A DNA stretch of 64,000 bases from Polychytrium aggregatum (taxonomy: Eukaryota > Chytridiomycota > Chytridiomycetes > Polychytriales). The notes under the pieces are model-generated. The model made no database searches. It saw nothing but the letters and a program-made list of their open reading frames with translations, and was not told the DNA's origin. Below are positions 9,037-63,401 of this stretch, piece after piece; position 1 is the stretch's first letter; every line of letters starts with the position of its first letter. A program made the position numbers and the translations under genes. Location of the stretch: the NCBI RefSeq assembly GCF_025602895.1, contig NW_026516299.1:115651-179650 (forward strand), in the 5' to 3' direction.

Positions 9037-9204
9037 CAGTGTGCAGGTCGATTGTGGAGACCTGAGAGCGACCGGTGGTGTTCACTCGGAGGCTGCCAAA
9101 GTGATCTGTTCTATTTCTTATGGCTTTGCTTGACGCAAGCATACCACATACTACATGTTCATGGAAACGGCTGTATTGTCCCGTTGCTTTCTGAATAAAG
9201 TGTA
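9037..9204 (+). repeat. 168-bp dispersed repeat, copy 1
   Basis: Matches 62844-63011 in the same orientation over the full 168 bases with about 10 substitutions and no indels (counted by eye). It begins CAGTGTGCAGGTCG and ends CTGAATAAAGTGTA, so it carries an AATAAA box near its 3' end. The minus strand is open across the whole unit in both copies. It lies 35 bases past the alanyl-tRNA synthetase stop. No target-site duplication or tRNA-like head was seen. Confidence 0.85.
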
Positions 9205-14641: not shown

Positions 14642-17600
14642 TCAGTCATATATCGGAGTTGGCGGATAGACAATCTCCTTGGATTGTGGGGTATTGGTCG
14701 GCGCAGGCAGCTGTTTGGCCTGCACGAGGTATTGCAGGCAAGCCTGCAAAATAGAGGAGGGCGCGGGAGCGGGCTGGTTGAACATCGCAAGGGCATTTTT
14801 GTTGTCGACGTTGAAGGCCGTCAGCCGGACCAGATCCATCAGCGGGTCAAGCGCATCGAACTGGCGGGTGCTGAGATTGTAGAGAGACTCGCGAAACTGA
14901 TGGCGGGTTTCGAACAGGAGATTCCATCCAAACCCAGCAATGGTCTCGAACAGTCGCTGTTCGCTGATTCTGTGGGCGGCGGCGATGTGAGCGAGTGCGG
15001 TATGCCCAGAGTGCATGCGCTATCACACAACCCCGACACCGTGCCGCTGCTCTTGGCGCTGAGAACGCCATTTCCGGCACAACTTACTGGCTCTCGGCAC
15101 TGACAGCGTGGAAGACAAACTTTTCGACGGATTCAGGGGATGTGCAGATGGTGGCGACCATCTGGGCAACGTGGTCGACACAGTCCATGTTCAAGTCGAC
15201 CATACTGAGGTGCGACGGTGTGGCCTCGACGGAGATGCATCCTTCGATGTAGTGCCATATGAAGCAGTCAGGGTCACACGCTGGATTCGCAAGTGTCGCA
15301 GAGCAGTCCAGTTGAGCCGCGGCGGTGGGGCAGTGGTGTGTTACAATAGGGAACACGGGACAGCGTGAGCGATTAGAGGAGGTCTCCATTCCGGTCAACC
15401 GATTGTCAAATGAGCAACGTCCACAGGAAAACATGCGTCGCTGGCATGGGCAACGAGCCCGAGCCGGTCGATCGCCGAGAGCACAAGCCCACACGCGCTT
15501 ACACCTCGACAGACAAGAGCACGCCATCTATCCATGCACGATGAGCACTGCTTGTGGTGCGATGGCAGACACCTACCTCCCCATCGGCTGTCTCCAAGTA
15601 CTATTCCCAGGCGGATGATCGAGGACGGGATGCCGCGCTGGCGAGCCTGATCCAGCAGCTGCTCTGATACCCACTTGGTCTGGTTGTAGCCTCCGGATAT
15701 TCTCCATTCGTGATAAATCCGTTCTTCGTAAAAGACACCGTTCCGGCCCTGTGCGAGGAGCGGCAGCACACCCGTGGTCGATATGTAGTGGATCACTTTC
15801 AGGTGATGCGTCGACGCCAGTTGCAGGGCAGCCATGGTGCTGCCGACGTTGACGGCCATAAGGATCTCGTACGAGTGGACCCAGTGGACAGTCTCAGCGT
15901 TGTGGATGATCATGTCCACATCCTCGGCGAGGTCTGCCCAGACGGATTGAGGGAGTCCCCAGGCGATGGCTGCAAGGTCGGCATAGTGTGCCTCCACCCG
16001 ATCCCAGATCTGGAACCGGGGACGGAGTTGGTCTCGCGAGTCAATCATACGCTCGAATGCAATCCGACGGAGGGTCGAAAGCGCTGTTCCATTCCGCTCG
16101 GGTTTGGTAGCGACGAGGCAGACAAAGCGCGATTGTGGAAGCTTCCATGCCAGCTCAAAAAGCAAGAAAATACCAAGGAGCGAATCGGCTCCTGTGAGCA
16201 ACACGGAGCGTGGCTCGTGCGGAAACTCGAACGGGGGCAGTCCGACGCTCGAAAACACGGGATTGTTCAAACGGTCGACTTCCTTGGTAAGGTTGAATTT
16301 GCAGCCATTGAAAGGCTTGCTGTCGATAGTATCCAGAATCAAACGGGCGATGCTGAGCGGGGTCGCACCGTTTGACACAAGAATGTGCGGCGGAATCTTG
16401 ACGCCAAATTCGTCGCGGAGCTTCAGCGCCATCTGAACGATGGTAAGGGAATCAAATCCGATCCCAGAAAAGAAATAGTTGCTGGTCGCATAGTAGGAAT
16501 TGCCCAAGATTTCCGCGCCCATCTCCGCGATCTTCAAAGCTGCGCGATTCACGGGCTTGTCCAGGGCCGGGATAGGTGGGTAGTACACCATCATGCCAAA
16601 TTCCTCGGCCGAATCGGCTATTTCCTTGAGGCGGCAAAGATTGCGCTTGCCGCACTCGATGTACGGGAGCTCTTCCATGGAGATGCAGTTGTGCAAAGGC
16701 ACGGTGCCTACATTTTCGAGCACAAACAGGTTCTCGACCATATCGAGGGCTTCCCGGGGCTTTAACTTGGCCTTGGAGCCAGAGGATTGGCTGGCGACGT
16801 AGATGAAGACAATCTTCATGCTGGTGCTCAGAACAAAGGCACAGTCGGTGATGACCGATCCCAGCTTCTCAAGCACCGTGCTCTGGAGGGTGTCGAGATG
16901 AACATAAACGCCGTTGATTTTGACTCGGTGGCCAAATCTGGGAGGATTCAGAGGAACGAGTTGGAAAGAATGCTGCATCACGGTGCTTTGCGATGACGGC
17001 GTATCGGTGATGGTCTCTTTGCTGGGACTGAGCTGCGCCTGTTGACGACGACTGCAGGCCCAGCGCCCAATCCCCAAAGCCTCCTCAGATAAACGGCCGA
17101 CTCAACCTCGCGCCAGCGACCGAGAAAGTACTCGAGCGAGAGTGAGCCAGTGTTGCTTACCTCCCGACGACTGTGAACTCGTTGTCGGCTACCAGTTCGA
17201 CCTCGTCCATGGTGCAGAGCCGCGGTGAGCGATCTTCAAAGAAACCAAAGGCGGCAAACGGAGCGCCAGCGTCGACCTTGTCGAATGGATACTTTTGCGC
17301 AATCGGATCGGTTGGATCCATTACGAGACAAAGCACACCCCTTCGACCGACAGCAGGATCGATCCTGTCCCCTTGATCATCCAGGAGCGCACAGTGCACG
17401 GTTGGAGAGTTGAGAACATAGGTGATCTTTTCGGGAAGCGGGTCGAAGGGGTGGATAATACAGCTGCCGGCAGCGCCGATGATCGTACTCTACATAGAAA
17501 CCGATCATCGTTTGGCAAGATTGGGCATCGTTAGAGATTGTTGGGCTTTGTTCGGCATTGAGCGAAGGTGTTCAAGATCGTTCAAGTTTGTGCTGATGTT

Positions 17601-26439: not shown

Positions 26440-26683
26440 GCGGAAGAAACTCTCTCCAGGAATTGAAACGAGAGGATGTGAAGTCATGGCCAAAATGAGG
26501 AATATGAATCGATTGGACAAATGGGACGGAATGCGATTGGGGAGAAAACAATGGGCCGAGGAGAGAACTGGGAGGAAAGGGAAATGGCCATACGACAAAG
26601 AGACAGCCCCAAATGACCAATACACAATACACACCATGGGTGACCGAGATTCGAGCGAGAGTGGAGACGACGCACCATGGACA

Positions 26684-26764
26684 CCATCACAGCCATCACA
26701 GCCATCACAGCCATCACAGCCATCACAGCCATCACAGCCATCACAGCCATCACAGCCATCACAC
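26684..26764 (+). repeat. 9-bp CCATCACAG minisatellite, left arm
   Basis: About eight perfect tandem units plus one variant (CCATCACAC). Plain structure, unlike the longer counterpart in the right arm. Confidence 0.9.
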
Positions 26765-27154
26765 CATCACAGCCCGCATTGCCCATCCGATATATTGACA
26801 TCCCGCAAAGGCGCGAGCCGGTTCTGTGAAGAGGAGTGCTTGCGGGGAACGAGAGTGTGGGACTGGCGGATGTGCTTCCGAGACCGTCGCTGACGAGGGG
26901 ATGAGCCAGCCGGCAAGGGCCGGCTCAATCACAATACACATCCGAGGAAGTGGGAGTGGGGTCGAAGCAGAAAGCGATGGGTTTTGCCACGTTTGGACCA
27001 CAAAGGCGACGGCATGAGACTGAAAGAGGAGCAGGGCACGGGGAGGGAGGGTATGGAAGACATGGAAGACCTGGGCGAGTGAATGGACAAGCAGATGAAG
27101 GAGTATAAGGAGTAAAAGGCAAGAATGAATGGACGAGCGAGTGGACGGGCGCAT

Positions 27155-27205
27155 GGAGGAGTGAATGGAGGAGTGAATGGAGGAGTGAATGGAGGAGTGG
27201 ATAGA
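27155..27205 (+). repeat. 12-bp GGAGGAGTGAAT tandem repeat, left arm
   Basis: Four near-perfect units upstream of the tRNA pair. The mirror copy is at about 30680-30740 in the right arm with the same structure. Confidence 0.8.
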
Positions 27206-27354
27206 AGGGAGAGGGAAGGGGAGCGAAGGGGAAGGGGAGCAGAGGAAGAGAGAGGCGTTGAGATTGGTGGCGATTGGTGGCGATGATTGTGGCGCTACTT
27301 GTGTCACGATGATAGTTTGGTCATGAAGGCTGTCGGGTTAATGCAGACAACAAA

Positions 27355-27426
27355 TCCGCATTGGTCCAGTGGCTAGGATTTCTCGCTCTCACCGAGACGG
27401 CCGGGGTTCGATTCCCCGATGCGGAA
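27355..27426 (+). tRNA. tRNA-Glu(CUC), left-arm copy
   Basis: 72 bases including the discriminator. Acceptor stem TCCGCAT/ATGCGGA pairs fully; anticodon stem TCTCG/CGAGA pairs fully around loop CTCTCAC (anticodon CTC). The T arm GGGGTTCGATTCCCC gives a perfect B box. No intron. No T-run follows; the next tRNA starts after only 5 bases, so the two are probably co-transcribed. Confidence 0.96.
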
Positions 27427-27431
27427 GACAT

Positions 27432-27504
27432 GCCTTCTTGGCTCAGTTGGCAGAGCGTCTGCCTAGTAAGCAGAAGGTCACCAGTTCAATTCTGGTAGAA
27501 GGCA
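27432..27504 (+). tRNA. tRNA-Thr(AGU), left-arm copy
   Basis: 73 bases. Acceptor stem GCCTTCT/AGAAGGC, anticodon stem TCTGC/GCAGA around loop CTAGTAA (anticodon AGT), T arm CCAGTTCAATTCTGG. Intronless. A34 would be edited to inosine. Separated by GACAT from tRNA-Glu. Confidence 0.96.
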
Positions 27505-27511
27505 TTTTTTT
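27505..27511 (+). terminator. RNA polymerase III terminator (T7)
   Basis: Seven T residues directly after tRNA-Thr. The only T-run of four or more after either gene of the pair. Confidence 0.85.
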
Positions 27512-29749
27512 GCTCGCTTTTGCTGTCCACGCTGTCCACGCTGTCCGTGCTTCGATCTGTCTGCCACTGATCGCTCGCTCGTCTCTCTGCATGCTCTGAT
27601 GCTCTGATGTTCTGGTGTCCCTCAGCCCTGTGCTGCACACTCAGTTCTGTATCCTTCATCATCCATCATCCATCCTCCATCCTCTCCCCTGTACACTCTA
27701 CTCTGCTTTCCCACTGTCGGTCTCGGTTTCGGCTCCAGTTCTTCCGCTGTGATGTGTCTGTTGCTCCGTTGCTGACCCGGGTGGTGGTGCTGCATTATAC
27801 CGCCAGCAGTCCATCACCACCCGGTCGTGCCGTTGCCCTGATCTCGGCCGACCCTGCTTTCTTTCTGCTGCCGCACCATTCCATCCAGCGTCGTCCTGCT
27901 CCACTCTGACACCTCAGCCACACTTTCATCCCCAATGCTTGTCGTCTCCATTGATTTTCTCATCGTTCCACTGTCTCACTGTTCCTTGCTTCGATGGCTC
28001 TGTCGACTATCCTCCGAATCACTCTCAACTCTCGGTGCTGTCATCATTTCTCATCACTCTCATATGCAGTATCACCTTTCCCGATACAACCCACATCCGC
28101 TCCACCCAATCTGTACCCACGGTGCCACAACATCCACTCCGACATTCCCATCAAAGTCGCCATGTTCCAATTGTCGGTGCTACTCCATCGTTGCATCTCC
28201 GCCTCCATTTTACTCGCACATTTCGCCTCCTGCTATTTGCTGCTTGAGTCCGACTGCTCGTGCCGACTATCAGTAGCACTCACTTGTGTGTCGACAAGTA
28301 TTGGCCTTGATATGGTTTCGACTGATGATCGCCCAACCCACACCACAATCGACTCGATCTTGTGGAAATACCAGCTTCGCCATCCCTCGAGTTGACTCGG
28401 CCAGCTCCCCGATTTGTGCTCATACATATGGCCTCACGGATGATATGGACCAACCCACTCATCAAGCTCTCTGAGCCTGTGTCGGCTTCTGCCACCACGC
28501 ATCCCTCCAACTGCATCACCAACGCACCATTGTCCATGAGGTTGAGTTTGGCTGATCCATCGTCCGACGGAACCGACTGCCATCGTCCCGATCGATGTCG
28601 AGCCGCATTTGAAGTCTCGCAGCAGCCTCTCACTCTTACATAGCCTCGCACCTCCAGCTGCCCACCAAACAGCCGTGGATTTCCCAGCCACAGCTTCAAA
28701 TGCAAGTGCAAGTCCACTCATTATGGGGAAATCAGGCATGCACCACATGATCTTGATTGCGACTCCAACGAGCAGCTTGTCTCAGCCGACGAGGCACCGA
28801 CAACCACAGCAACAGTTGTTGTCGTAGTAATCAGCGTCGCAGCAATTCGCTGGTTGAATGGCAGCGGCCCTGTTCCTGGGATCAACCGATCTGTCCCTGG
28901 TCGACACACAATCTCGTCCAATCGTTAGCCATGAGTGGTGAGCATCGCTGAGTGGACCAGCAAAGCTGATGGAACGGACACTGATTGCCAGATCGAGGGT
29001 CGCATCGATGAAGTGATTCGCAGATGATGGAGATGATACCGAAATGGATGTGTGGAATAGTAACGGGCTGCAGCAGCGAGCCAACCGCGCCTGAGTGCAA
29101 CTGCCTCAGACAGGACTGTCGCGGAAGGGACGAGGAGCGGGCAGTCCTTTGGAGCCTGGGATCGAGGCGGGACGTACTCCATATCGGTGGGACGTGGAGG
29201 TGGAGGGGTTTCTGCAACAGTGAGCAGTCGGGTTCTCATGCTGGCCCGTGCCGCAGACAAAGATTCGGTCCATGGTGAATTGAGACCGAGTGTGACTGAG
29301 TGTGGCCAAGGGCCAGTCGCAGTCAAGTTCGAGGAAGTCTGAAAGTGGGATGCGACTCCAGCGGATCCGACAATTCCGAGGATGGAGGGCGTCGCAGGCA
29401 ATGCCGATGCTGTCTGTTTTTGAAATATACTCTCGCAGTGGACCGGTCCGGGGAAGAACGAATGATGCGCCATAGCCAGAGCCAATCCGATATTGGCAGA
29501 ACAGCAGCGGGCAGCCAACTGAGGTGCGACGATGAGTTGGGGGATGGCGATATCGCAGGGACAGAACGAATTGATGCCGGGGACTGGTGTTGGGTCGCAG
29601 TGGCGACGACGAAGCAAGTGTGTTGCAGCGACGATGAGCCGCGAATTCTGCGGGTTGGTCGGTGGGCCGGCGAGTTGGGGATGGGCGACAGACGCAAGGT
29701 GCAGAAACATGAAGTGAGAGATTGGGGTGAGGTGCGATGGGAATGGGGC

Positions 29750-29754
29750 AAAAA
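29750..29754 (-). terminator. RNA polymerase III terminator for tRNA-Gly
   Basis: Five T residues on the minus strand, 2 bases past the tRNA-Gly discriminator. Confidence 0.65.
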
Positions 29755-29756
29755 GA

Positions 29757-29828
29757 TGAACCGACCGGGATTCGAACCCGGGACGCAAGCTTGGAAGGCT
29801 GGCATGCTAACCACTACACCATCGGTCC
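29757..29828 (-). tRNA. tRNA-Gly(UCC)
   Basis: 72 bases including the discriminator A. Acceptor stem GGACCGA/TCGGTTC has one G-U pair. D arm is TGGTGTAGTGGTTAGCA. The anticodon loop is CTTCCAA (anticodon TCC). T arm CCGGGTTCGAATCCCGG is perfect. The anticodon stem CCAGC/GCTTG has one C-U mismatch (positions 28-42). Sits in the repeat centre, 121 bases from the right arm. Confidence 0.93.
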
Positions 29829-30381
29829 TTATTGACGAAGCAAAATCAGGGTATATGACTCTGGCAGGCGAGACACAACAGACGACATAGAGAGAGTGCA
29901 GCCGCACAGTCACACCCGAGCTGCTGGGTGCAGACGATGAAGATGCAATGACAAGCATTGGGGATGAAAGTGTGGCTGAGGTGCCAGAGTGGAGCAGGAC
30001 GACGCTGGACAGAGTGGTGCGGCAGCAGAAAGAAAGCAGGGTCGGCCGAGATCAGGGCAACGGCACGACCGGGTGGTGATGGACTGCTGGCGGTATAATG
30101 CAGCACCACCACCCGGGTCAGCAACGGAGCAACAGACACATCACAGCGGAAGAACTGGAGCCGAAACCGAGACCGACAGTGGGAAAGCAGAGTAGAGTGT
30201 ACAGGGGAGAGGATGGAGGATGGATGATGGATGATGAAGGATACAGAACTGAGTGTGCAGCACAGGGCTGAGGGACACCAGAACATCAGAGCATCAGAGC
30301 ATGCAGAGAGACGAGCGAGCGATCAGTGGCAGACAGATCGAAGCACGGACAGCGTGGACAGCGTGGACAGCAAAAGCGAGC

Positions 30382-30388
30382 AAAAAAA
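30382..30388 (-). terminator. RNA polymerase III terminator (T7), right arm
   Basis: Seven T residues on the minus strand directly after the right-arm tRNA-Thr; mirror of 27505-27511. Confidence 0.85.
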
Positions 30389-30461
30389 TGCCTTCTACCA
30401 GAATTGAACTGGTGACCTTCTGCTTACTAGGCAGACGCTCTGCCAACTGAGCCAAGAAGGC
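30389..30461 (-). tRNA. tRNA-Thr(AGU), right-arm copy
   Basis: Sequence identical to 27432-27504 in reverse complement; loop CTAGTAA, anticodon AGT. Confidence 0.96.
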
Positions 30462-30466
30462 ATGTC

Positions 30467-30538
30467 TTCCGCATCGGGGAATCGAACCCCGGCCGTCTCG
30501 GTGAGAGCGAGAAATCCTAGCCACTGGACCAATGCGGA
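30467..30538 (-). tRNA. tRNA-Glu(CUC), right-arm copy
   Basis: Sequence identical to 27355-27426 in reverse complement; loop CTCTCAC, anticodon CTC. Transcribed before tRNA-Thr with the same 5-base spacer. Confidence 0.96.
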
Positions 30539-31130
30539 TTTGTTGTCTGCATTAACCCGACAGCCTTCATGACCAAACTATCATCGTGACACAAGTAGCG
30601 CCACAATCATCGCCACCAATCGCCACCAATCTCAACGCCTCTCTCTTCCTCTGCTCCCCTTCCCCTTCGCTCCCCTTCCCTCTCCCTTCTATCCACTCCT
30701 CCATTCACTCCTCCATTCACTCCTCCATTCACTCCTCCATGCGCCCGTCCACTCGCTCGTCCATTCATTCTTGCCTTTTACTCCTTATACTCCTTCATCT
30801 GCTTGTCCATTCACTCGCCCAGGTCTTCCATGTCTTCCATACCCTCCCTCCCCGTGCCCTGCTCCTCTTTCAGTCTCATGCCGTCGCCTTTGTGGTCCAA
30901 ACGTGGCAAAACCCATCGCTTTCTGCTTCGACCCCACTCCCACTTCCTCGGATGTGTATTGTGATTGAGCCGGCCCTTGCCGGCTGGCTCATCCCCTCGT
31001 CAGCGACGGTCTCGGAAGCACATCCGCCAGTCCCACACTCTCGTTCCCCGCAAGCACTCCTCTTCACAGAACCGGCTCGCGCCTTTGCGGGATGTCAATA
31101 TATCGGATGGGCAATGCGGGCTGTGATGGT

Positions 31131-31274
31131 GTGATGGCTGTGATGGCTGTGATGGCTGTGATGTCTGTGATAGGGCGTGATGGCTGTGATGGCTGTGATG
31201 TCTGTGATGGCTGTGATGGCTGTGATGGCTGTGATGTCTGTGATAGGGCGTGATGGCTGTGATGGCTGTGATGG
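31131..31274 (-). repeat. Rearranged CCATCACAG minisatellite, right arm
   Basis: Read on the plus strand as GTGATGGCT units, interrupted by variant units GTGATGTCT and GTGATAGGGC in a repeated order, so a higher-order unit of about 60-70 bases occurs about twice. The left-arm counterpart lacks the variants. Confidence 0.88.
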
Positions 31275-31370
31275 TGTCCATGGTGCGTCGTCTCCACTCT
31301 CGCTCGAATCTCGGTCACCCATGGTGTGTATTGTGTATTGATCGTTTGGGGCTGTCCCTCTGTCGTATGG

Positions 31371-61400: not shown

Positions 61401-62733
61401 TGCAAGAAGCCTGCGCACAACTTAGCGCTGTTTTGGGTGCCATAGACACGCACTCATTGCGGTCGAAGCACGAGGTCCTGAAACTCAGAAGTGATATTCA
61501 GAGCATTGCTGTCAACATTCAGGAAGACTATCATTATTGGCTGAAAGTGGCATCATCGACTTATCTGCCGTGCTCCACCACCAACAGCAGCGTTACGTCA
61601 ACCTGTGGTATGAGCACTTTGCCTTGACCGCGCGAAATATGGCCAAGGTTGTGGACCTGTGTGCTAACTTGCCCGCCCGTATGCTGCTGTGAAGGCCTGG
61701 GAGAGTATCTGAATTCTCATAGCAAAAGCGAAGTTCGTGCGCAAGACGACTTGAGGCATTGCCTGCCCAGGCCGTGTGCGCAACCCGTCTCTGCAACAGT
61801 GCGCTCGGAATTGCCGGTCAAAACAGAAAGGGCACTTTGTACCCAAGCCAGTGACGCCACCGTGCTGGAGTCGGCCATCAATGAGCTATGCAGCCCCGAG
61901 GAGCAACGAGCAGGTGAGATGACTGTCTGAATGCTCGAAAACGATTCCGCTGCGTCATTTGATTGGCTCTGATCCTATGCCGTCACTTTGTTGAAGGGAC
62001 GTGGCCCTCTCGCCCAATGCTGCAAGAGGAAGCCCTGCACAAGATCAGCAAGATGAACGAGCGTCTCGTTGATTACATGGCTGGGCTTGATTCGCTCTCA
62101 ACCACGATCTCTAGCGATGTGCTTGACTGCGTCAGACATGTTGCCCTCCAGTTCCAGGTGAGCAAGCCGGGGCGATCGAAAATACCGATGCTGATACCGC
62201 CAAACCCGAGTGGATAGTGCGGGTTGCTGACAACATGGGTGAACAGGATCAACTCGGTGGACAGAACGAGCGCGATTATCTCCAAGAGGAAAACAAGTCA
62301 TTACAGATGGTGAGGATCCATCACCCCCATCACTTCCATCACTCCCATCGCATCCACGATACTGCTCGGCACCGTGACCGAGTTCGCAGCATCGAGATAA
62401 TATGCAGCCTGAGGTTACTGCGGATGCCGTGTCATGCGTGGTTGGCCTCTGCAAAGGCCGCTCACACGACGCTGTACTCCTTCGCTCATTTGTCTGTCGG
62501 TTGAATCCCAGCAAATCCAAGCACTCACTCAAGAACGCGACTCACTTGAAACGAGTGCCAGGCAAAGCCTCGTGCTCTCATCGGATGTGGAGGAGTTGAA
62601 GAGACAGCTGCAGGAGGCAATCACTTGCAGGAACGAAGCCGAACGCAAGCACCGCGCGCTCGAGGCCGAACACAGAAAGACACAAAGTGTACTCGATATG
62701 TTCAGATCGATGATGGATAAGCCCGATTTATAG
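55462..62733 (+). CDS. Large DH-PH (RhoGEF) protein with downstream RhoGAP-like fold and coiled coil
   Basis: Rho-family exchange factor with many exons. N-terminal exons of no known domain read LQKHVASFLDDQGYAHDIPE (about 55729-55855) and LSATALVSLFWQRYL (about 56170-56440). The DH domain begins RIRIFKEFVATEESYLRSI (about 56985) and includes IMQRLPRYVMLFDRM (about 57700). A PH-like domain follows (IILLFTDCIYILSYD, about 58138; KAELLKQIQHCKTLLK, about 58435). A Ser-rich region leads to SLKTLCDELERR (about 59835), EADVIYSNPEV (59967-60000), LPHEVIIDIIKMY (about 60195), EEINAIISRLDRSRAVRLEY (about 60555) and YSNAIRIYGHLL (about 60752), which follow the RhoGAP fold order. The C-terminus is coiled coil (VEELKRQLQEAITCRNEAER). 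The start and many exon edges are unresolved. Confidence 0.65.
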
Positions 62734-63401
62734 GCAATCCAATAAAAAACGGGACACCCGGGTTTTTGACCATTCATCGAATATTTTGTTACCCAATGTT
62801 ATCGCGCGCTGGCCATGACCATTCGCCGCTGGCACTCCGAGACCAGTGTGCAGGTCGATTGTGGAGACCGGAGAGCGACCGGTGGTCTTCACTCGGAGGC
62901 TGCCAAAGTGATCTGTTTTATTTCTTGTGGCTTTGCTTGACGCGAGCACAGCACATACTACATGTTCATGGAAACGGCTATATTGTCCCGTTTTTTTCTG
63001 AATAAAGTGTATAGGGGGTTGTTGTTGCGAGTTCTCAGCGAGGCTCTGAATACCCAAGATTGATCACCATGTAGTCGACGTGCGCCGAAGAGCACACGCA
63101 CTGGGCTATCTTCCTCCCGAAGTGGCGATGGGTTCGGATACTGGAGAATCTTCAACCGACGCAGACTTGACGCACTTACCCACTTTCCATGACTTATGAG
63201 AGATGGTTGATCATCGACGGCGACGGAGAGACATTTATGTATTCAGAAATAAAGTAGCGCGGACCATGGGTCACGTAAAAGCAGTGTGGACCGCTTTTCG
63301 CGAGGGAGCCGTGACGGTCCGTATGGGGGGGGGCTCGCAAGATTGATGGTACTGGGGGGGGGTCGCAATTCTAATTCTCAGAGGCAAGACTGCACAAACG
63401 A
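62734..63401. other. 3' intergenic region, contains the dispersed repeat copy 2
   Basis: Lies between convergent stops. Apart from the 168-bp repeat it holds two long G runs (about 63325-63332 and 63353-63361). No gene recognised. Confidence 0.5.
62844..63011 (+). repeat. 168-bp dispersed repeat, copy 2
   Basis: Same orientation as 9037-9204, about 94 percent identical by eye, no indels. Its AATAAA (63001-63006) lies 268 bases past the stop of the DH-PH gene on the same strand, so it could act as that gene's poly(A) signal. Confidence 0.85.

Follow-up and report, generated by a model that had tools for sequence, protein, structure and literature searches.

Palindromes whose arms convert one another are said to have been described on the Y chromosome by Rozen in 2003. 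In its passages on such structures, a report on Folsomia treats arm-converting palindromes as known from Y chromosomes and discusses them for parthenogenetic animals, a rotifer and Folsomia, the latter with 11 palindromes made up of blocks of protein-coding genes that concerted evolution is said not to explain (PMC5490193). A different kind of relative is found in the centromeres of S. osmophilus, where, according to the excerpted text of the study, the repeats are flanked by tRNA genes, inverted repeats flank the cores, and tRNA gene-mediated recombination is suggested as the origin (PMC10085805). The eukaryotic tDNA survey of Bermudez-Santana 2010 reports that tRNA genes cluster and that, inside a cluster, most neighboring genes (<1 kb apart) are parallel (PMC2888827). 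In yeast, Ty elements that lie in inverted pairs act as hotspots of mitotic recombination, as stated in the excerpt of PMC3616911.

The locus described here lies in a 64-kb stretch of DNA (hereafter the window), which is part of contig C416 of an assembly of 64.7 Mb in 418 contigs. Like the palindromes of the Y chromosome, the rotifer and Folsomia, as far as the cited passages describe them, it has inverted arms and a unique spacer, and at two loci of the present genome the two arms of a chromosome copy match each other; unlike them, the arms found here are short (0.2-6 kb) and contain tRNA genes. With the centromeres of S. osmophilus, as excerpted, it shares inverted repeats and repeats flanked by tRNA genes. 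The present structures differ from these centromeres in being found on many contigs, partly around ordinary genes, and in having a change-over of sequence at or inside a tRNA gene. The clustering of the tRNA genes is similar to that in the surveyed portion of eukaryotic tDNA, whereas inverted partners of the same sequence prevail here among the listed B-box hits up to 10 kb, which is a different measure from that of the survey. The matches listed in the open-licence literature, as excerpted, contain no description of tRNA palindromes on many contigs of a nuclear genome.

Structure of the Palindrome

The inverted-repeat comparison of the window yields a left arm at 26588..27943 (+ strand, 1,356 bp), a right arm at 29950..31370 (- strand, 1,421 bp), and between them a centre of 2,006 bp at 27944..29949. 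This confirms the preliminary description, made from the letters of the DNA, of a large palindrome with arms of about 1.36 and 1.42 kb and a 2.0-kb centre. Beyond the two arms, no inverted repeat was returned by a window-wide search with an exact seed of 14 and a minimum of 40 nt. The segments 26722-27943 and 29950-31171 are 100% complementary over 1,222 nt, while the outer part of the arms (26588-26708 and 31250-31370) is 97% complementary over 121 nt. A 9-bp minisatellite is unlike between the arms, extending over 26684..26774 (+) in the left one and, in a longer form, over 31119..31274 (+) in the right one. The arm edges are abrupt, the ungapped identity falling to chance level, with 25% over the 60 bp just beyond the outer edges and 18% over the 60 bp just within the inner ones. 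The window locus therefore displays the near-identical inverted arms around a unique spacer by which arm-converting palindromes are recognized.

Each arm carries, as had been noted before, a mirrored pair of tRNA-Glu (CTC) and tRNA-Thr (AGT) genes; both are directed toward the centre. The left pair is located at 27355..27426 (+) and 27431..27505 (+), and the right pair at 30467..30538 (-) and 30388..30462 (-), respectively, with the two tRNA-Glu genes identical to each other. The centre contains a single tRNA-Gly (TCC) at 29757..29828 (-), also in accordance with the preliminary description, and a 287-aa open reading frame, the one reading frame compared with Pfam, which gave no match. Elsewhere in the window, a 560-aa NRPS-like reading frame at 15395-17077 (-) has a phosphopantetheine site and a thioester-reductase domain, every NCBIfam match being below the cut-off. 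A reading of these domains as a Lys2-like pair, which would have spoken for a fungus, is given up on this ground.

A Second Assembled Copy with a Flipped Interior

Both flanks of the palindrome in the window are matched at ~98% and in the same orientation at C157:150000-159999, and the palindrome edges there are identical to those on C416. The collinearity of the two contigs was compared over ~5 kb of flank, because matches to a high-copy repeat dominated the search with the right 20 kb of the window (1,252 candidates, of which 38 were scored). Other loci are likewise paired on near-identical contigs, namely C367/C356 (99.7%), C312/C70 (99.5%), C46/C391 (99.5%), and C13/C331 (99.9%), and the assembly therefore contains two copies of a number of regions. 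We infer that C416 and C157 represent homologous chromosomes.

Two side observations may be given here. The exons of IFT57 are present at two near-identical places, C390:96956-99205 and C397:611702-613895, which points to a flagellated eukaryote, at a guess a zoosporic fungus, and to a region that is twice in the assembly. In addition, a high-copy dispersed repeat of ~290 bp occupies 62716-63022 of the window, with a second partial copy at 9037-9204 (1,252 first-look candidates, 38 of them scored); it occurs in many places as two separate pieces and might be a short non-autonomous element.

In the C157 copy, the interior corresponding to 26588-31232 is reversed, such that the centre is on the minus strand and the tRNA-Gly is on the opposite strand relative to the flanks. 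The interior is inverted between the two copies as assembled, a picture that a phasing error could also give. Such a flipped interior is seen in one of the three palindromes for which both copies were compared. That the window palindrome is a simple fold-back of a read end is unlikely, because the C157 copy has the same edges and matching flanks and because each arm has its own unique outer flank.

The more general proposal that the arm likeness or the flip results from collapsed or mis-phased reads finds some basis in where the contigs stop: C67, C280, and C333 each have an end that lies in a palindrome arm or next to one, and one end of C391 adjoins a tRNA cluster, as if the assembler had broken there. 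However, the two arms have different unique flanks on the outside, and differences private to one arm have been retained, among them a 16-bp indel, clustered SNPs, and the length of the minisatellite. The inverted repeats found, moreover, carry tRNA genes, which an assembly or polishing artefact would not select. On balance, we regard an artefact as improbable.

Likeness of the Arms

A four-arm alignment of the C416 and C157 copies was used to examine how the arms have diverged. In the interior corresponding to 26775-27943, 16 differences were counted, two of which are ragged slice ends, leaving 14. Eight of these 14 are within-copy, i.e., both arms of one copy differ from both arms of the other, six are private, and none is arm-specific across the copies. 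Toward its outer end, the arm does have arm-specific sites, both outside the minisatellite and inside it. A similar distribution is obtained for C367/C356, where six of the eight events are within-copy, one is arm-specific and situated at the outer edge, and one is a private insertion of 208 bp. The latter (stretch L012, 8371-8595) consists of ~104-bp tandem units and is found in one arm of one copy only, which implies that the assembler kept the arms apart. The third pair, C312/C70, behaves differently: its arms are 92% alike, and 12 of the 14 differences are arm-specific while none is within-copy, although the test is weaker here as the copies differ little. The two arms of one chromosome copy thus resemble each other more than they resemble the arms of the other copy at the window locus and at C367/C356 and not at C312/C70.

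Because each assembled copy has two matching arms that differ from those of the other copy, homogenisation of the window arms by arm-to-arm gene conversion is supported at the level of the assembled sequences, with the reservation that consensus polishing can imitate such likeness. The preliminary description had left a choice between arms that are young and arms that are kept alike by gene conversion; the within-copy pattern favors the second part of this statement, while youth alone is rather unlikely, since at two loci the palindrome predates the split of the copies.

The same evidence bears on the possibility that these are plain inverted segmental duplications, in which tRNA clusters were occasionally duplicated and the arms are alike through youth, with no need for ongoing conversion. 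A segmental inverted duplication, one of the two options originally considered, does fit, and it is a tRNA gene cluster that recurs, without any unit of fixed ends. Some arms are also nearly identical over long stretches, the extreme being 5,955 bp at 99.98% on C46, and for the latter region no second copy, and thus no empty site, was found among the 40 scored of 498 candidates. Nevertheless, palindromes with the same edges in both copies at two loci must be older than the split of those copies, yet the variants are common to both arms within a copy. Duplication without conversion is accordingly rather unlikely as the full explanation, and arm-to-arm conversion is retained in what follows.

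Change-Over at the tRNA Genes

The core of the palindrome, 27348..30545, is found a second time at C157:285266-288421 (C157b), 132 kb from the C157 copy of the window locus, with an identity of ~96-97%, and the end of C67 is a 99.3% copy of this second locus. The limits of the common core are the two tRNA-Glu genes, outside of which the second locus has outer arms that differ from the window's and form a palindrome of their own. The suggestion in the preliminary description to see whether arm or centre recurs elsewhere has therefore two answers, a C157 copy with the same edges and a second locus that has the core only, with other outer arms.

The tRNA-Glu genes of the window and of the second locus differ at positions 26, 27, 34, 43, and 44 only, in the same manner on both arms, while the remainder of the gene, the 4-nt intergene, and the tRNA-Thr are identical. 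With these differences, the tRNA-Glu of the second locus is a TTC gene, as on C367, C356, and C113, and its intergene is of the type of the window, not of the C367 or C113 type. The simplest reading is that the change-over took place, left and right alike, in the final portion of tRNA-Glu. Alternatively, positions 26-44 could be a small conversion patch of later date, in which case the change-over would be at the 5' end of tRNA-Glu. In either case the change-over would be at or inside the gene.

Two further sequence families behave similarly. On C24, there are three tRNA-His palindromes in a span of 130 kb. What the palindrome at 551 kb has in common with its neighbors at 424 and 462 kb is limited, to within one base, to the stretch between and including the tRNA-His genes, and the outer arms differ. 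Of the 40 scored matches (45 candidates) to the Ala-Lys-Asn cluster of C333, 17 include upstream flank (≥100 bp) and end inside the query, and in 16 of these 17 the end falls within the tRNA cluster, these loci being related and not independent. In three families, then, sequence shared between otherwise unlike loci starts or ends at tRNA genes. The conservation of tRNA genes alone can end a match at the gene edge, yet a shared flank that stops at this point is not accounted for in this way. A 14-kb element with tRNA genes at its ends, which had been suspected from the C333 coordinates, was set aside: C333:1-1000 contains a tRNA-Ala, -Lys, and -Asn cluster, whose upstream flank is common to other loci up to the tRNA genes (C333:6000-7499 was inspected by eye).

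It is appropriate to consider here a fold-back or terminal-inverted-repeat mobile element carrying tRNA genes, since the presence of the same core at two loci and the long inverted ends would be in line with such an element. A mobile element is, however, expected to have the same ends at different insertion sites, and the second locus has the core only, between different outer arms. No direct repeat of 2-15 bp adjoins 26588 and 31370, which agrees with the earlier remark that no target-site duplication is visible, and the one reading frame of the centre compared with Pfam is without a match. No shared edge motif was seen in the eight palindromes inspected by eye. The arms of the other tRNA palindromes vary from 162 to 5,955 bp and their spacers from 0.5 to 22 kb, with ordinary genes in some of the latter, such as eIF3d (C113), a Sel1-repeat protein (C356), and a major-facilitator transporter (C312). 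The undescribed fold-back-type unit that had been proposed as the other option is hence not supported, and we consider a mobile element very unlikely.

Proposed Recombination between tRNA Genes

tRNA genes stall replication forks in yeast, and they are obstacles to replication and suspected sites of recombination. On the basis of the comparisons above, we propose as the probable explanation that tRNA genes supply the homology by which ectopic recombination homogenises, flips, and exchanges the segments that they bound. The recurring arrangement consists of two inverted copies of a tRNA gene cluster, in most cases together with some hundred bp to either side of it, which enclose a unique segment. 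The first inverted copy would arise by template switching or break-induced copying at the tRNA genes. The tRNA genes would then provide homology between otherwise unlike loci, and conversion or crossing-over would copy or swap the adjoining sequence. Recombination between inverted partners would only flip the spacer, whereas recombination between direct partners would delete it, which may be the way in which inverted pairs survive.

A more far-reaching version, which we put forward as a speculation, is that tRNA genes act as recombination ports throughout the genome and that their inverted pairs form invertible and exchangeable cassettes. Flipping and swapping would then have to occur so often that homologous chromosomes differ in this respect, and they might rearrange or insulate the genes in between. 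Should the proposed role of tRNA genes be upheld, this would be a natural genome in which the products of tRNA-gene recombination can be read, i.e., homogenised inverted arms, an inversion between copies, and exchanges with a change-over at a tRNA gene or within it. Reads and population samples would then allow a test of how tRNA genes, ectopic recombination, and chromosome structure are linked, and a route would be provided for the concerted evolution of dispersed tRNA genes.

tRNA Palindromes across the Assembly

The arms of 13 tRNA palindromes were compared: the window locus with its C157 copy, C157b, C367/C356, C113, C312/C70, C13, C334, the three on C24, C257, and the outer and inner palindromes of C46, the inner one being present in each outer arm and counted once. 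One more, on C333, is indicated by coordinates (two inverted 1-kb matches, 100%). These 13 loci were chosen through tRNA search matches and yield no rate; we conclude from them that tRNA palindromes are recurrent in this genome as assembled. Inverted repeats of at least 150 bp numbered 16 in the stretches examined, which were selected for tRNAs and in which alleles were counted apart; 15 of them have tRNAs in both arms, and the remaining one is the inner portion of a tRNA arm that an insertion has divided. The tRNA block is situated at 0.26-0.68 of the flank length in 10 of the 12 arms measured, and the other two arms are little more than tRNA genes. An inverted partner was absent from the stretch examined for the tRNA loci on C28, C222, C225, C46 at 886 kb (with C391), and C177.

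Since the anatomy of inverted repeats with tRNA genes around a core is similar to that of fission yeasts, at least as the excerpt of PMC10085805 presents it, a centromere core of the fission-yeast type, with a unique core between inverted tRNA-bearing repeats, has to be weighed as well. Against this, several palindromes may lie on a single contig (three within 130 kb on C24, two on C157 at a distance of 132 kb), instead of one per chromosome, and the core is not gene-free, as other loci have genes between the arms (eIF3d on C113). A centromeric nature is consequently very unlikely.

The orientation of neighboring tRNA genes was also assessed with B-box patterns, a partner being defined as a hit with the same 11 bases. 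For pattern 1, 98 of the first 100 listed of 426 hits were used. At distances of 0.2-5 kb, an inverted partner was found for 16 of the 98 and a direct one for none; up to 10 kb, the numbers are 27 inverted versus 6 direct, and up to 25 kb, 37 versus 10, where shuffling of the strands gave a mean of 24 and a maximum of 39 (2,000 shuffles). Two narrower patterns are less clear at 10 kb (15 inverted versus 6 direct of 59, and 15 versus 11 of 84). These counts must be read with the reversed-pattern control in mind, which gave 203 hits against 426 for the B-box, and 52 against 59 and 134 against 119 for the narrower patterns, implying that about half or more of the B-box hits are due to chance. Of 1,357 candidates, 63 tRNAs were scored; within this list, an inverted neighbor at ≤10 kb is present for 19 of them and a same-strand neighbor for 2. 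The 5S rRNA, taken as a control with another Pol III gene, was uninformative (4,242 candidates, 47 scored, 2 matches).

Pairs that depart from the inverted order were encountered on C28, where His-Thr tRNA pairs in direct order are 13.7 kb apart, and on C28 and C55 in the form of same-strand B-box hits 6.3 kb apart. The most elaborate arrangement is that of C46:193001-211000, which contains nested palindromes: inside each of the long, almost identical outer arms there is a separate inverted Lys-Cys tRNA pair as well as an Asp-Val pair. Between these arms (stretch L036, 7616-9000) lies a member of a 1.4-kb repeat family. Three relatives of it lie close together on C57 (546-556 kb), and further ones are found on C68, C301, and C334. 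The same contig also has an exact tandem duplication of 660 bp (stretch L025, 6496-7814).
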